Shown piece by piece: positions 24,913 to 32,156 of a DNA stretch of 33,034 nt. Both the position numbers and the translations under genes were made by a program. The notes under the pieces were generated by a model. It was not told the DNA's origin. It saw nothing but the letters and a program-made list of their open reading frames with translations, and did not search any database. The DNA is from Vampirovibrionales bacterium (GTDB lineage Bacteria > Cyanobacteriota > Vampirovibrionia > Vampirovibrionales > JAGQHJ01), in the NCBI GenBank assembly GCA_025449835.1, contig JANWIO010000012.1, forward strand, positions 1 through 33,034, in the 5' to 3' direction. The stretch's first letter is position 1. Each line of letters starts with the position of its first letter.

Positions 24913-25756
24913 GGCACTTGTCAAAAAAGCCAAAGCCCTCCGACTTAAAAAGGGGCTTTCTCAAAATTTTCTGGTGGATGATAGCTATTTACAGAAAATT
25001 GTTGACGCTGTTTCCCAAAAGCCAACGGCGCTTCCTATCGTTGAAATTGGAGCCGGGGCTGGATTCTTAACAGAGAAGCTTTTACGTGCTGACTATCGGG
25101 TAACCGCCATTGAAATTGATTCTAAAATGATTCGGCAGTTACAACTTCTCCAGCAACAATACCCTCAGCTGCAAATTATCCACCAAGATGTCACCACCCA
25201 AGATTTAGACAGCCTGGTTGCGCCACGAGGCATTATCGTGGGAAATATCCCTTACCATTTAACCGGCCCCATCCTGTTTCAAATTACGGGAGAACTCTCT
25301 AATCCAGACTATCCTTTACGAAAACATCTTGAAAAAGCTGTTTTAATGGTTCAAAAAGAAGTGGGAGAACGACTTACCGCAAAACCTGGTGATAGCAGCT
25401 ATAGCCAACTGACTTTGCAAGCTCAGTTTTGGTTTCAGGTCACCCCGCTTATCACCATTCCTAAAAATGCATATTATCCCAGCCCACAGGTGGATTCCAT
25501 GGTGATTCAGCTTATCCCAAGAGAAATACCTGCCATTACTGTTCAAGATTTAGCCTTTTTTAGTCGCCTGATTAAGCAAAGCTTTCTCCATCGGCGAAAA
25601 ACCTTGTTGAATAACCTGAAAATAGCTGGATTTGGAACAGATACGCAACTCAAATTGCTTCTGGAACAGCTGAACATCCCAGAGAATTACCGCCCTCAAT
25701 CCGTTTCCATGGAAAAATTCGGAGCTTTAGCCAATGCCCTTCTCGCAAACCAGTAA
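24899..25756 (+). CDS. rsmA: 16S rRNA dimethyladenosine transferase RsmA/KsgA
   Basis: 285 residues. SAM-dependent dimethylation of A1518 and A1519 of 16S rRNA. Motifs: KKGLSQNFLVDDSYLQKIVD (family N-terminus), VEIGAGAGFLTEKLL (motif I, about residues 48-62) and GNIPYHLTGPILF (NxPY motif IV); C-terminal RRKTLLNNLK. GTG 24899 is the best start; a TTG at 24869 is further inside the upstream gene. The SD is weak. Overlaps the ROK gene and ispE, so it is translationally coupled on both sides. Confidence 0.94.
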   Translation: MSVNKALVKKAKALRLKKGLSQNFLVDDSYLQKIVDAVSQKPTALPIVEIGAGAGFLTEKLLRADYRVTAIEIDSKMIRQLQLLQQQYPQLQIIHQDVTTQDLDSLVAPRGIIVGNIPYHLTGPILFQITGELSNPDYPLRKHLEKAVLMVQKEVGERLTAKPGDSSYSQLTLQAQFWFQVTPLITIPKNAYYPSPQVDSMVIQLIPREIPAITVQDLAFFSRLIKQSFLHRRKTLLNNLKIAGFGTDTQLKLLLEQLNIPENYRPQSVSMEKFGALANALLANQ

Positions 25757-26615
25757 GGCTTTTGCCAAAATCAATCTTTTCCTGAACCTCTTGGGGAAAC
25801 GCCCTGATGGGTTTCATGAAGTGCGTTTTATTATGCAGACCCTTTCATTGGCTGATACGCTAGAAGTGACTCATACGGGAGAGGGATTGGGGATTGATTT
25901 CACCTGTAGCGACCCGACCTTGGCCAATACCGATAATCTCATTGTAAAGGCCTATCATCACTTTTACCAATCCACAAAGCTTCCCCCTCTCGCCCTCCAA
26001 GTAAACCTTCAGAAAGAGATTCCCATTCAGGCAGGCTTAGGCGGAGGGAGTTCTGATGCAGCAGCGATGCTCAAAACCTTAAACACGCTTCATCAAGAGG
26101 CTCTTTCTTCCCATGAGCTTCATGCTCTAGCAGCACACCTGGGATCCGATGTTCCGTTCTTTCTTACCGGAGGAACCTGCCTTGCCACAGGCAGAGGTGA
26201 GATAGTTACACCCTTGCCATCACTCCCTTCTCAAAAAGTTGTTCTTTTAAAACCCAAAGGGTATGGGATTTCAACGCCTTATGCCTATCAATTGGTCCAA
26301 CAAAAAGGATATTACCAAACCCATGATATTTCTCCTTTTGAAGCCTACTTAAAATTACAAACCCCTTATCCTGAAACACTTGGAGCATTGCTATTGAACG
26401 ACTTTGAGTCAGCTCTTTTTGAGGCTCATCCCGATTTAGCTAAGACCAAAGAGACACTTTTAGGATTAGGGCTTCCAGGGGCTTTGCTTAGTGGCAGTGG
26501 TCCCACACTGTTTGGCATTTTATCTAATCCTGAGCCCCAAATGGCGGCAATAAAATACCATTTTTCAGCAGATCAATGGGTTGTGCTTGAAACCCAGGCC
26601 CTTGATTTTTCTTAA
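25734..26615 (+). CDS. ispE: 4-diphosphocytidyl-2-C-methyl-D-erythritol kinase
   Basis: 293 residues. Fourth enzyme of the MEP isoprenoid pathway, GHMP kinase fold. AKINLFLNLLGKRPDGFHEV (catalytic K12), PIQAGLGGGSSDAAA (ATP loop, about 97-111), GSDVPFFL (catalytic D139) and LLSGSGPTLFGIL near the C-terminus (GHMP motif 3). Starts 23 bases inside rsmA; rsmA-ispE is a common pair. Shows that the organism makes isoprenoids by the MEP route. Confidence 0.96.
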   Translation: MPFSQTSKAFAKINLFLNLLGKRPDGFHEVRFIMQTLSLADTLEVTHTGEGLGIDFTCSDPTLANTDNLIVKAYHHFYQSTKLPPLALQVNLQKEIPIQAGLGGGSSDAAAMLKTLNTLHQEALSSHELHALAAHLGSDVPFFLTGGTCLATGRGEIVTPLPSLPSQKVVLLKPKGYGISTPYAYQLVQQKGYYQTHDISPFEAYLKLQTPYPETLGALLLNDFESALFEAHPDLAKTKETLLGLGLPGALLSGSGPTLFGILSNPEPQMAAIKYHFSADQWVVLETQALDFS

Positions 26616-27069: not shown

Positions 27070-29673
27070 TTATTCCGCTTTAGGAGATCGATGCAGGGTA
27101 TGAAATCCCATGTTACTTCGGGGTTTATCAGTCTTCCTTTTTCGTACTGCCAGAAGTTCCCGCATCAGATCCGCTTGTGTCACTGTGGGCACTTCTTTTG
27201 CCAAGGCCTCCATATCAGGAGAGTCTTGCTGACCGTAGTGATCTAGGATTGAACCTAAGGAAGCCAAACCGTGGTTGGTGGCCCGTCGGATAAGCATTTC
27301 CAACTTCCGGCCGGAAAACCCTTTTGTCAGACCGGCTAATTTGTCAAAATCAATATTGCCATCAAAGGGAAATCCTGAACGCTGTGCATGGAGTTTTAAA
27401 ATGGCTTCTCGATCTGCTTGTTTAGGCATTTTAAAGTGAATTTGTTTGTATTGACGGCTTTGAAATGCTTCATCCAAAACTTCCGGGCGATTGGTAGCAA
27501 CAATGGTTGTCACACCCTCACGACCCACAAAACCGTCCAGTTCTACAAGAATTTGATTCAAGGTACTTTCAACTTCTTGAGCTCCGGAAGAAACTTCTCC
27601 TTTTCGGGTTCGAGCAATAGCGTCAATTTCATCTAAAAAAACAATACAAGGCTTATGGTCATTGGCTTTGCGATATATTTCTCGAACACTAGCAGCGCCT
27701 TGGCCTAGATACATTTTACGCAGTTCTGAAGCGCTGAGAGAAATCAGTTTGAACCCTGATTCATTGGCAAGGGCTTTGGCAAGCATTGTTTTACCCGTTC
27801 CTGGCTTTCCGATAAAGGAGATTAGGGGAGGCACTTTAATATCAATGTTTTTTTGCTGCTTTAAAGTCGCCAACAGTTTGTAATTTTTCAACAACGCTAC
27901 AAGACGCTGGGCTTCTTCAACAGCTTCTTTTTGGCCAATGACATCCCCTAACATCACATCCGATTTGGGGGCAAAGCCAAAGGAACCTTCTTCAGAAGAT
28001 TCAGGTTCAGACCCAACAGACTCCAAAAACTGCTCACGTGCTGTTTGATAGTGATCAATATCATCAGTCGTGATGAGACTCCCACCACGAATCCTTTTTT
28101 CAGCTGTAGGCTCTATTTTTTCACCCACTTGGTATGCAACATTTTCAAGCACATGCATAATATCGGCTCGGTTGGGAGGCCGACCCGTTTTATCCATTAA
28201 ACTTTTTGCAGTATATTCAATCACTTTTGGCGGAAACTTAACATGATAGGTATCCTCAATGGCTTGTAACGGCCCTTTTTGGGTCAGTTGAAATTCGGCA
28301 GAGACCTGAGACAGTGAGGGGGGCGAAACTTTTACAATGGCTGCATGATCATATAATTTAGGATTCACGTTTGCAGACAATTGGTTTAACCCTGCCACCA
28401 CCAGCTTGACCCGAGGATATGCCCGAGCCAATTCCGGTAACTTGTCAACAACTGGTAATAATAATTTATCTCCAATTAAGAACATCACCGCATTTTCACC
28501 GTTTGGGGTCTTCCGCTCAATTTCGGCCATGGTATAGCGTACCCCCTCTAAAATATAAGATCTATCGGTTTCATGCAGCGCATTCTCTGTTACAGGAAGA
28601 TCTAGCCATTGCGAATGGAATTGCTCGTTAACATTCTCTTGTGGCTTACCCTTTGGAAATGGCGAAAAAGGCTCATTGACCAAAACATGGCTATAAATAT
28701 TTTCCTTAATTCTGGGATCTAAGGCCAACTGAATCAGCGCATCTTTTTGATCCGCCGCGTCTCCTAGAATAATCCCGACTTTAGGCAGGAAATTAAACCC
28801 TTTGATAACTTTCTCAACCAGGGTTTCCACCTCATTGATGTGTACATGCTCTGGTGCTATCGCAACGCGTAAAGGGCGAGACGTATAAGAGCGGAACTCA
28901 GCCTCTTCTTGTTGCTCATATGGTTGCTCAGAGTTCAATGCTACATCTTCTTCAGGTAATGGTTCTCCAGTTCCTTTAGATGTTCCTGTTTCAGCAAAAT
29001 TTTGCACATAGGTAGGCAAATCGGAAAATCCCTCTGCAAAAGATTTTAAGGTTTGCTTCAAAATATTTTCTGACTCTTCAGACTTGCGTAATACCCGGAA
29101 TAAAGATTGATACAGATTTTCAGAAGACAAGGGACCTTTATTCGCCCTTGAAGCTGTTCTGAGGAGATTAACGAGAATTTTTTCCTCATTTTTGGCAAAC
29201 GTGCTTCGTTTTAACTTGATGAGATCTGACTTGAACTGAGCCAGCATATTTGCAAAACTCTGGTTAAACAGATTGTGAAGATTATGTTCAAGCGTTGTTT
29301 TGGGGCCTTCCATGGGGAGATTACATGCCAATTGATTTTGAAAGGCAACCAATGCTGGTGCTTTTTGCCAACGCTGAAATAATTGCCCCAGTCGAGATTG
29401 GTTTTGATATGCTGTATAGGCGTGAATGTCATTTAAAATAAAGCTGGTTATTTTGCGATCCTCGGCAGATGCAGCACGCCAACGCTTTTTTAAATCAGGC
29501 GCCAAAACATCTGGCGATAGCCTTTCTCCTACATCATTCACGTCTTCTTTAATAGAGACTTGGGAGTTTGCCTCTCCCATACCTGAGCTCTCTAACGGAG
29601 AACCAGACAATTTACCTTGAAAACGCGGGAACGCATTTGCATTCAAACCAATTTTGGGTGACCCAACCAACAT
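27070..29673 (-). CDS. Two-module AAA+ ATPase: degenerate Clp-like module plus FtsH-like module, no protease
   Basis: 867 residues from ATG 29673, chosen because AAAGG lies about 12 nt upstream and a promoter covers the longer frame. Residues about 30-260 are helical and unrecognised. About 270-520 resembles a ClpA/ClpB first nucleotide-binding module with lost catalytic sites: VGIILGDAADQKDALIQLAL replaces Walker A and AVMFLIGDK replaces Walker B. About 575-760 is a live FtsH-type AAA module: Walker A GKPGTGKT (622-629), Walker B CIVFLDE (676-682) and sensor TIVATNRPEVLDEAF. The first arginine-finger position is kept (SRQYKQ) and the second is Lys. No HExxH zinc protease follows; the last 100 residues are the lid and a basic tail. 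No membrane segments. Probably a cytoplasmic remodelling ATPase; substrate unknown. Confidence 0.85.
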   Translation of the reverse strand: MLVGSPKIGLNANAFPRFQGKLSGSPLESSGMGEANSQVSIKEDVNDVGERLSPDVLAPDLKKRWRAASAEDRKITSFILNDIHAYTAYQNQSRLGQLFQRWQKAPALVAFQNQLACNLPMEGPKTTLEHNLHNLFNQSFANMLAQFKSDLIKLKRSTFAKNEEKILVNLLRTASRANKGPLSSENLYQSLFRVLRKSEESENILKQTLKSFAEGFSDLPTYVQNFAETGTSKGTGEPLPEEDVALNSEQPYEQQEEAEFRSYTSRPLRVAIAPEHVHINEVETLVEKVIKGFNFLPKVGIILGDAADQKDALIQLALDPRIKENIYSHVLVNEPFSPFPKGKPQENVNEQFHSQWLDLPVTENALHETDRSYILEGVRYTMAEIERKTPNGENAVMFLIGDKLLLPVVDKLPELARAYPRVKLVVAGLNQLSANVNPKLYDHAAIVKVSPPSLSQVSAEFQLTQKGPLQAIEDTYHVKFPPKVIEYTAKSLMDKTGRPPNRADIMHVLENVAYQVGEKIEPTAEKRIRGGSLITTDDIDHYQTAREQFLESVGSEPESSEEGSFGFAPKSDVMLGDVIGQKEAVEEAQRLVALLKNYKLLATLKQQKNIDIKVPPLISFIGKPGTGKTMLAKALANESGFKLISLSASELRKMYLGQGAASVREIYRKANDHKPCIVFLDEIDAIARTRKGEVSSGAQEVESTLNQILVELDGFVGREGVTTIVATNRPEVLDEAFQSRQYKQIHFKMPKQADREAILKLHAQRSGFPFDGNIDFDKLAGLTKGFSGRKLEMLIRRATNHGLASLGSILDHYGQQDSPDMEALAKEVPTVTQADLMRELLAVRKRKTDKPRSNMGFHTLHRSPKAE

Positions 29674-29748: not shown

Positions 29749-29802
29749 TTTAAACAATACAAAAAGTGAAATATTTTGTAATAAATTTCGGGTATTCTAA
29801 AA

Positions 29803-30711
29803 TCAATCCAAGGTTTCTTGAACTTTTAGAAGTCTTTTAGCTGCTAAATCAATATATTCTGGATTATTATCATAGCCAACAAAGCGCCGACGTTGCTTTA
29901 AAGCCACTACACAAGTGGTGCCGCTCCCACAAAATGGGTCTAAAACCACATCATTTTCAAATGAATAGAGCTGTATCAAGCGATAGGGCAGTTCTTCCGG
30001 GAAAGGGGCTGGGTGGCCAACGCGTCGGGCCGATTCTGAACGAAATGTCCAAAGGCTTTTGGTGTAGGTCATAAATTCTTCTTTCACCATGGTTGCTGGA
30101 GACGCCGGTTTTCGCCGAGAGAAACTCTCTTTGGAAAAAACCAGAATATATTCATGGGTATCTCTTAAAATAGGGTTGGTTGGCGAGTTCCAGCTTCCCC
30201 AGGCTGTTGAAATGCCCGCACTACTCCCTTTATCCCAAATAATTTCACCCCGCATTAAAAATCCCAAGCGCAACATCTCTTCAATCACATACAGGTGCAG
30301 GGGAATATACGGACTTCGGCCCAGATTGGCAATATTGATACACGCTCGCCCCCCTGTTACCAACACCCGATACGTTTCTTGAAAAACCGACCTTAACAAC
30401 TCCCGATATTCCTGAAGGGATAGATTCGTATCATAAAGTTTAGAGGCGTTATAAGGGGGAGAGGTAATCATCAGATGCACGGAGGCATCTGGCAGCTGAT
30501 TCATGACATCACTGGATTGGCAAAAAAGTTGATTCTGAACAGATTGAGGGAGTGGGTTTTCAATAAACTCACTGGGTTTTAATGCGGGTCGATTCTCATA
30601 TAAACGAGATTGATAAAACGTATCGGCCTTATGATTTTCTCGTTTGGATGATCCAAAGGCCTTGGTCTTGCTTCCTTTACGGGAAGGTTTTTTAGGATGT
30701 AATTCTTTCAT
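29803..30711 (-). CDS. Beta-class DNA methyltransferase (SPPY type)
   Basis: 302 residues. Catalytic motif IV TSPPYN (S84-Y87) comes before the SAM-binding motif I DPFCGSGTT (D258-T266), the beta-class order. SPPY is commonest among N4-cytosine methyltransferases, but some N6-adenine enzymes also carry it, so the base is uncertain. The first 30 residues are Lys/Ser/Arg-rich and probably disordered. ATG start with no clear SD. It lies 62 bases downstream of dam on the same strand. No restriction endonuclease is recognisable beside it, so it is probably an orphan or regulatory methylase. Recognition sequence unknown. Confidence 0.9.
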   Translation of the reverse strand: MKELHPKKPSRKGSKTKAFGSSKRENHKADTFYQSRLYENRPALKPSEFIENPLPQSVQNQLFCQSSDVMNQLPDASVHLMITSPPYNASKLYDTNLSLQEYRELLRSVFQETYRVLVTGGRACINIANLGRSPYIPLHLYVIEEMLRLGFLMRGEIIWDKGSSAGISTAWGSWNSPTNPILRDTHEYILVFSKESFSRRKPASPATMVKEEFMTYTKSLWTFRSESARRVGHPAPFPEELPYRLIQLYSFENDVVLDPFCGSGTTCVVALKQRRRFVGYDNNPEYIDLAAKRLLKVQETLD

Positions 30712-30772: not shown

Positions 30773-31606
30773 TCACCTGTAAACTGAGCTTGCAGGCTCA
30801 AATAAAGCCAGTAGCTCTGATGCTTTATTGCGATTTTTCCCTTGACAACTAATATAGCGCTGAACAAATAACTCTGTTTTCTTGGCATTGTGATAGATCT
30901 GTTGGGTAAACTCAGTGTTGTGATTGGAAAGTAACACAACAACGTCACGGTCTGCTAAACCTTGGGCCAGTTTGGCCAAGGCTTCTTGCTGTTCTAATGA
31001 AAATCCGCCTGCGCTATAGCTGGTAAAATTTGCAGTGGTAGATAAGGGGACATAAGGCGGATCACAGTAGACAATGTCACCCACCTTAGCCATTGGCATG
31101 ATGGTTTTAAAATCGGCTTTCTGAAAACAAGCCCTCTGCGATTTTTGATAAAACCAAAGCATCTCTTTTTGGGGGAAATAGGGTTTTTGATACCGCCCAA
31201 AGGGGACATTAAATTGATGCTTTGCATTATAGCGACACAGCCCATTAAAGCAATGACGGTTTAAATACAAAAATAAGGCCGATTTATACACCGGATCTTC
31301 TGTTGTATTAAAGGCCTCTCGAAGTTGGTAATACTGATCAGCAACATTGTTTTGAGGGATAAAAAAGGTTTCACAATACTGGATAAACGCCTCACCCTGT
31401 GCCTGTAAAATTTGATATAACTGAATTAGATCACCATTGGTATCTGTCAGTAGAGACTCGGGATAAGTCGTATTTAAAAATACCGCCCCTGATCCGACAA
31501 AAGGCTCCATAAGCCGTTTTCGATCCGGGTATTTTTTTAAAATTGCTTCAATATTTTGCAGAATGGCATATTTATTACCTGCCCACTTTAAAAAGGGTTT
31601 ATGCAT
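30773..31606 (-). CDS. dam: DNA adenine methyltransferase Dam (GATC)
   Basis: 277 residues, almost exactly the length of E. coli Dam. FLKWAGNKY (5-13) and MEPFVGSGAVFLNT form the SAM site; CDPPYVPLS (DPPY 182-185) is catalytic. The DNA-recognition stretch LNRHCFNGLCRYNAKHQFNV followed by PFGRY is very close to that of GATC-specific Dam enzymes, so N6-methylation of GATC is likely. ATG 31606 is chosen because AAAGGG lies 6 nt upstream and gives the canonical N-terminus; the frame stays open to 31660. No mutH or seqA is in the window. Confidence 0.93.
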   Translation of the reverse strand: MHKPFLKWAGNKYAILQNIEAILKKYPDRKRLMEPFVGSGAVFLNTTYPESLLTDTNGDLIQLYQILQAQGEAFIQYCETFFIPQNNVADQYYQLREAFNTTEDPVYKSALFLYLNRHCFNGLCRYNAKHQFNVPFGRYQKPYFPQKEMLWFYQKSQRACFQKADFKTIMPMAKVGDIVYCDPPYVPLSTTANFTSYSAGGFSLEQQEALAKLAQGLADRDVVVLLSNHNTEFTQQIYHNAKKTELFVQRYISCQGKNRNKASELLALFEPASSVYR

Positions 31607-31720
31607 TGATTGCCCTTTGGCGCCCATCATGATGAAACCTTTGAAAATCACTCCAATCACTAAGGTATCACTAATACCCCAGTTTCCAAAATGGTTGGTT
31701 TAAATAGCGATTTTAGGGCG

Positions 31721-32071
31721 TTAATACCCACCACCTTGCTTGGTTCCAAATTCATCTTTCGCCGCCTGCGACGTTTTTTGAGACATTGCGTCCAACTGCC
31801 TTCCAATGGCCGTTGATTTATCGCTAATAATCTTAAGTCGGGTATCAATAAGGCTTTCTGCTTCAGAAAGTTGAGAAACCCTGGCCTGTAAAAGCCTTGC
31901 CGTCTCTGATCCGGGTTCAAAATTAACTTTATGGGTTAACAGGCCACTAAGCTTAGAAGCCGCCCGCTGAAGAAACATCTTTTGCTGTACTAAAAACGTT
32001 TCTTCCAACTCATACTCATATTTCAGAGCGATAAGCATTGATATGATTGGTAAACCTGATGCAAATGGCAT
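31721..32071 (-). CDS. Small coiled-coil protein of unknown function
   Basis: 116 residues from ATG 32071, which has GGGGGA about 7 nt upstream. An N-terminal hydrophobic patch (MPFASGLPIISMLIAL), then a predominantly helical protein with coiled-coil propensity: SEAESLIDTRLKIISDKSTA followed by IGRQLDAMSQKTSQAAKDEF. Gly-rich end (KQGGGY). Not recognised. It could be a filament or secretion-apparatus component by size and helix pattern, but this is speculation. A second small unknown gene lies 85 bases upstream on the same strand. Confidence 0.6.
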   Translation of the reverse strand: MPFASGLPIISMLIALKYEYELEETFLVQQKMFLQRAASKLSGLLTHKVNFEPGSETARLLQARVSQLSEAESLIDTRLKIISDKSTAIGRQLDAMSQKTSQAAKDEFGTKQGGGY

Positions 32072-32156
32072 TTTGTGTTCCCCCAAGGACCCCTTTAACT
32101 ATATAAAAACCCTTCGACCTATTTTTGTGCTAGTTCCTGTAAAAAATGTTTAATCT

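Follow-up and report, generated by a model that had tools for sequence, protein, structure and literature searches.

A small two-module AAA+ protein family in Vampirovibrionales that appears to combine a live, peptidase-free FtsH-type module with a putative inactive first module

The question raised by this locus is what a protein might do that carries the AAA module of FtsH without its protease, behind a long N-terminal part of obscure relationship. The initial annotation had read the gene as a dead Clp-type module fused to a live FtsH-type module, and as a pairing that had not been described before. The gene lies in the window, by which we mean the whole stretch of DNA analysed here (33,034 nucleotides of contig JANWIO010000012.1 from a Vampirovibrionales bacterium). 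Two start codons are available, an ATG at 29673 leading to 867 amino acids and a TTG at 29757 leading to 895 amino acids. The ATG form was adopted because an AGAAAGG stretch lies 5' of it, while by eye no ribosome-binding site precedes the TTG, and residue numbers refer to the 867-aa form unless the 895-aa form is named. Approximately 130 bp separate the gene from its nearest upstream neighbor. A promoter immediately 5' of the ATG was rejected with matches at or below the shuffle level, as was a viral origin, the viral hits being generic AAA matches. GC and GC3 are uniform throughout the gene, and a chimera is therefore not indicated by composition. The protein is divided as follows.

27070-29673, reverse strand: coding sequence of the tandem AAA+ protein, 867 aa, an uninterrupted reading frame with its stop codon at 27070-27072
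29614-29631, reverse strand: FPRFQG element, residues 15-20, resembling RFG/RFQG elements near the starts of other Vampirovibrionales proteins
28969-29511, reverse strand: N-terminal helical region, residues ~55-235, all helix in a low-confidence model, no homolog found
28024-28866, reverse strand: putative dead AAA module (D1), residues ~270-550, with the low-confidence element order beta1-alpha1-beta2-alpha2-beta3-alpha3-beta4-alpha4 plus four lid helices
27184-27963, reverse strand: apparently live FtsH-type AAA module (D2) and lid, residues ~571-830, assigned from Pfam, NCBIfam and solved relatives

The C-terminal module is the well-defined part of the protein. It matches the Pfam AAA family with an E-value of 4.4e-36, and its best NCBIfam model is FtsH (TIGR01241; E 4.5e-60, residues 598-826 of the 895-aa form), whose full-length score of 204 bits stays below the curated cut-off of 600. 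Solved relatives are p97, Cdc48, NVL and FtsH. It is not a Clp D2 module; AAA_2 remained below its cut-off and ClpB_D2-small was absent. The motifs that had suggested FtsH were all located, with GKPGTGKT at residues 622-629, CIVFLDEIDA at 676-685 and ATNRP at 726-730, and the individual elements map as listed.

27787-27810, reverse strand: D2 Walker A, GKPGTGKT (motif position)
27697-27714, reverse strand: D2 pore loop MYLGQG, aromatic-hydrophobic-Gly, at the site of the FtsH FVG loop
27619-27648, reverse strand: D2 Walker B, CIVFLDEIDA (motif position)
27484-27501, reverse strand: D2 sensor 1, ATN (motif position)
27448-27462, reverse strand: D2 arginine finger, SR in place of RPGRFDR, a family feature
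27304-27318, reverse strand: FSGR in place of F(S/T)GAD, a family feature

AAA rings use an aromatic pore loop to pull on polypeptides, and the site of each subunit is completed by an arginine finger from its neighbor. D2 keeps Walker A, the Y-L-G pore loop, Walker B, sensor 1 and one arginine finger. Residue 830 is followed by no more than a short tail, and, as had been claimed, neither an HExxH motif nor a Pfam peptidase follows beyond residue 800. With these motifs kept, D2 looks like a working motor that lacks its protease. At the level of its residues, D2 is thereby shown to be an FtsH-derived AAA module that carries what is needed to bind ATP, to hydrolyze it and to grip a substrate, and that has lost its peptidase. 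Apart from the best family match, the likeness to FtsH extends to the DGF segment. In contrast to FtsH, the protein has no recognized transmembrane N-part, no HExxH and an unmatched N-part of ~560 residues, and within D2 it departs from FtsH at the arginine finger and at the FSGR segment. The motor of FtsH proteins is, to our knowledge, almost always coupled to a proteolytic function.

The N-terminal part could not be assigned by similarity. For the first ~563 residues, nothing above noise was obtained in Pfam (E up to 10) or the PDB, and there was no match in GTDB contigs, viral contigs, the own genome, 289 genomes of the class (including 18 Vampirovibrionales genomes), 386 genomes of the phylum, or phages, plasmids and PHROGs. 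AlphaFold predicts no regular structure for the first ~50 residues, and an acidic linker lies between the helical region and the putative D1. A worn Clp_N domain was considered for the N-terminal region and rejected; the best local alignment of the Clp profile fell on the second Clp_N repeat with a chance-level score. Elements of the type RFG, RFQG or RFAG also occur in the low-complexity N-terminal stretch of unrelated proteins (L022, L023, L024, L025, L036, L037, L077, L087 and L110), where their counts are suggestive only, because the control set (other phyla, FtsH-redundant) is high as well.

A survey of related genomes, which the initial annotation had proposed, showed that the layout recurs. 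A paralog of 785 aa (L036, G000:C150) is encoded in the same genome, and a homolog of 820 aa (L022/L110; G013:C2, CAIPMU010000002.1) in a metagenome-assembled genome of Vampirovibrio chlorellavorus. In both, a module without recognizable ATPase motifs precedes a live FtsH-type module, and no peptidase follows. The SR finger and the FSGR segment occur together only in these three proteins among ~70 FtsH-type modules compared. A tree of D2 modules firmly groups L022 with L036, while the 867-aa protein sits on a long branch and does not group with them unaided; forcing the trio into one clade changed the log-likelihood by +2.07 with a p-AU of 0.71, so that the grouping is not rejected, although the clade is not recovered unaided. 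A profile built from the trio returned only the three at 494-602 bits among the 289 genomes, with ordinary FtsH next at 227 bits. It is the gap below the trio that is informative rather than its own score, because the members built the profile. No fourth member was found in this search of the 289 class genomes. Three genes in 2 of the 18 Vampirovibrionales genomes make this a rare family, and one that changes fast. The expectation that the pairing had not been described before held, as it is absent from Pfam, NCBIfam and PADLOC. Judged by these comparisons, the three proteins are a new, very small and fast-evolving two-module AAA+ family of Vampirovibrionales, and a variant of known AAA+ machines.

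What the first module is, is the more difficult part of the question. The segments in which a ClpA/ClpB-like first module had been recognized are present, namely GIILGDAADQKDAL at residues ~300-313, AVMFLIGDK at 395-403, VSPPSLS at 449-455 and YHVKFPPK at 476-483, and none of them contains a Walker A or Walker B residue, in agreement with the claim that the ATPase residues are lost. The positions of the expected elements are given below.

28735-28779, reverse strand: D1 Walker A position, VGIILGDAADQKDAL, without GK[ST]
28465-28494, reverse strand: D1 Walker B position, NAVMFLIGDK, without DE, in hhalign register with the Clp Walker B
28390-28410, reverse strand: D1 sensor-1 strand position, VKLVVAG, from model and motif position
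28024-28272, reverse strand: putative D1 lid, residues 468-550, containing ITTDDIDHY, from lid scoring

Structure models of D1 were single-sequence AlphaFold predictions with a pLDDT of 38 for the full length and 48 for D1 only. The D1-only model runs through a helix, a strand (298-303), a helix, a strand (326-333), a helix (368-388), a strand (395-400), a helix, a strand (422-427), further helices and a final set of four helices. This order matches an AAA core followed by its lid (pLDDT 48, pTM 0.39), and nearly the same D1 order is seen in the full-length model. In a Foldseek search with the low-confidence D1-only model, the top match was the AAA+ protein PCH-2/TRIP13 (best E 2.2e-3), and AAA+ chains made up approximately one quarter of the best 50 matches, with ClpC, Mpa, proteasomal ATPases, RFC and Vps4 among them. 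Matches of the full-length model to p97/Cdc48 (TM ~0.13) were given no weight for D1, because D2 alone would bring them. On these indirect signs, together with the alignment register and the lid scores given below, we consider an AAA fold of residues 270-550 likely, and we infer that such a module would neither bind nor hydrolyze ATP.

Two origins fit such a module, either a Clp N-domain and D1 fused to an FtsH motor, or the duplication of an FtsH-type module with subsequent decay of the first copy. With regard to Clp, D1 resembles the first module of ClpA, ClpB and ClpC in element order and alignment register; it differs by the lack of significant similarity and of Walker residues, and by a second module that is not a Clp D2. 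A profile HMM of the Clp N-domain and D1 scored ~0 bits on the N-terminal part, which is not above chance. Aligned by hhalign to a Clp D1 profile made from 32 sequences of the same class, D1 reached a score of 13.8, at the level of shuffled sequences (14.9 +/- 2.8). The alignment itself spans more than 110 columns and places AVMFLIGDK within 5 positions of the Clp Walker B; of 150 shuffles, 9 fell into the predicted Walker B register and 2 reached at least 80 columns. We regard this long in-register alignment as suggestive. The lid adds a further signal. Compared with the lids of L022 and of a Clp paralog described below (L077), it scored above ~422 of 424 unrelated segments with BLOSUM45; BLOSUM50 was at least as good and BLOSUM62 weaker. 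The lids of canonical ClpB, canonical ClpC and L036 remained at background level, and pairwise scores of the D1 region among the three family members were not significant for the 867-aa protein.

The Clp paralog L077 (L077:1-2568, forward strand; on G000:C78, beside clpB) comes from the same genome and carries, like the 867-aa protein, an N-domain and then an eroded D1 next to a live D2. Its D1 retains the P-loop GPKKVGKT and has VILHLQN at the Walker B site, and its D2 is intact; its family-mate L087 keeps both P-loop and Walker B. In contrast to the 867-aa protein, both modules of L077 are unmistakably of Clp type (Pfam AAA_lid_9, AAA_2 and ClpB_D2-small) and its D1 P-loop is kept. By analogy, it offers a helpful same-genome case of how a D1 may decay.

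The strongest competitor accepts the same machine, but derives D1 from a classic AAA module of FtsH type that was duplicated inside an FtsH-like protein and then decayed, instead of from Clp. Within the class, two or three FtsH-type modules follow one another in L029 (G023) and in ORFs of ~1,100 aa in G028:C262, G033:C13 and G038:C3, the open frames of these proteins, L029 included, measuring 898 to 1,128 aa, and therefore a duplicate origin is realistic. The failure of Clp profiles to find D1 and the background scores of the canonical ClpB and ClpC D1 lids point the same way. However, D1 aligned no better to an FtsH-type profile than to Clp D1 in hhalign, and the only lid matches above background were L022 and the Clp paralog L077. 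We hold this origin as a tentative possibility. A dead Clp D1, as initially proposed, stays plausible on element order, register and lid score. The Clp sequence scores are at chance, and no measurement favors the Clp type over a copy of a classic AAA or FtsH module that decayed. The suggested check by AlphaFold and profiles against Clp D1 came out in the same divided manner, with order and register in favor, but with low model confidence and a chance-level score. A specifically Clp origin of D1 is doubtful in our estimate, and a true chimera of an Hsp100/Clp N-domain and a D1 without ATPase function, fused to a protease-less FtsH motor, is somewhat unlikely. If it were true, six identical subunits would make up a bacterial double ring, one of whose rings had entirely lost the binding of nucleotides. 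As a separate observation on the tandem proteins, L029 is FtsH-like and carries a C-terminal peptidase with HExxH.

A further alternative denies the first module its fold. Residues 270-550 would then not be AAA, and the protein would be a one-ring AAA remodeller on the Vps4/Msp1 plan, with a long N-terminal adaptor containing another alpha/beta domain. This would agree with the lack of any sequence-level link of the region to an AAA family, and with the pantothenate synthetase, PLP enzymes and other Rossmann-type enzymes that appeared in the Foldseek search of the D1 model at E-values similar to those of the AAA+ proteins. Against it speak the order of elements, a four-helix end that resembles a lid and the long in-register Clp D1 alignment, and we consider it unlikely.

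Our main reading, to which we assign a probability of approximately 0.6, is a two-module AAA+ family with a dead AAA-fold D1 and a stacked hexamer driven by D2 alone, which releases a remodelled or unfolded product. From what is known of AAA+ families, six copies would stack as one homohexameric particle, in which the D2 ring alone would hydrolyze ATP and pull the polypeptide through its Y-L-G pore loops. D1 and the helical N-domain would form a passive, flexing ring that may dock substrates or adaptors and hold the hexamer together, comparable to the inactive D1 of Pex1/Pex6. The output would be an unfolded, remodelled or disassembled client protein and no cut peptides. By analogy, the family members are probably peptidase-free unfoldases with one working ring stacked on a non-hydrolyzing module.

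In the type II AAA+ machine Pex1/Pex6, the D1 ring is inactive and moves along with the active D2 ring on which it is stacked, and the D2 ring threads the substrate (PMC10518020); the order of a dead D1 and a live D2 is the same here. Pex1/Pex6 is, however, a eukaryotic heterohexamer whose D1 is recognizable as AAA and still binds ATP, whereas the D1 of the 867-aa protein lacks even a P-loop and its D2 is of FtsH type. The plant FtsHi proteins are FtsH-derived pseudo-proteases that are presumed to be proteolytically inactive and yet are essential, and thus offer a second case of an FtsH-derived AAA thought to work without proteolysis (PMC8197885). FtsHi proteins retain the overall FtsH architecture, and their zinc site is mutated or lost; in the 867-aa protein the whole peptidase domain is absent and an extra module precedes the AAA. 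An FtsH-type AAA that has no peptidase and is joined to a module devoid of nucleotide-binding residues would exemplify how bacteria can arrive at a machine of the Pex1/6 kind. It would also make it possible to study the part that an inactive ring plays in a simple homo-oligomer.

The neighborhood suggests another role, as two methylase genes lie upstream of the AAA gene.

29803-30711, reverse strand: DpnA-like N6/N4 methylase, upstream of the AAA gene
30773-31660, reverse strand: Dam methylase (DpnM-like), upstream of the DpnA-like gene
25734-26615, convergent, downstream of the AAA gene: GHMP kinase gene (Pfam), which we take to be ispE

In the DpnII system, the third gene encodes an endonuclease. 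Since the AAA gene stands in the place of this endonuclease, a defense role is worth naming, with the AAA protein as the motor of a DNA-defense locus that may act in restriction or transformation. The order of dam, dpnA-like and AAA gene on one strand recalls the dpnM-dpnA-dpnB system (PMC3573125), and no DpnII endonuclease was found in the genome, although the model used scored above its cut-off in just a single control genome. However, the gap of 130 bp, an AAA protein without nuclease motif or family, the neighbors seen beside L036 and L022, which were not such methylases, and a DpnA-like gene without homolog in the other 17 Vampirovibrionales genomes render this very unlikely. The anti-phage ATPase IetA, whose system also includes a subtilase partner, was rejected as a candidate: it matched D2 only, with 91 bits against a cut-off of 510, the neighbors examined were methylases, and the match reflects generic AAA similarity. 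Finally, a decaying FtsH or Clp relic heading to loss, for which the very long branch and the lack of a close homolog might speak, is hardly credible given 867 open codons of even composition, all D2 catalytic motifs kept, and a paralog and a homolog of the same layout. Upstream of dam, a 121-aa ORF (31721-32086, reverse strand) had no family match.

Within the order, which includes the algal predator Vampirovibrio, the protein-quality machinery looks unusually varied, with an eroded Clp paralog and FtsH paralogs of altered zinc motif. The latter (L023, L024, L025, L026, L034 and L038) carry HExxGH, one residue longer than HExxH, and, going by this motif, may together be pseudo-peptidases or altered peptidases. 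Another FtsH-like protein, the 434-aa ORF L030, stops after its AAA module and has no peptidase.
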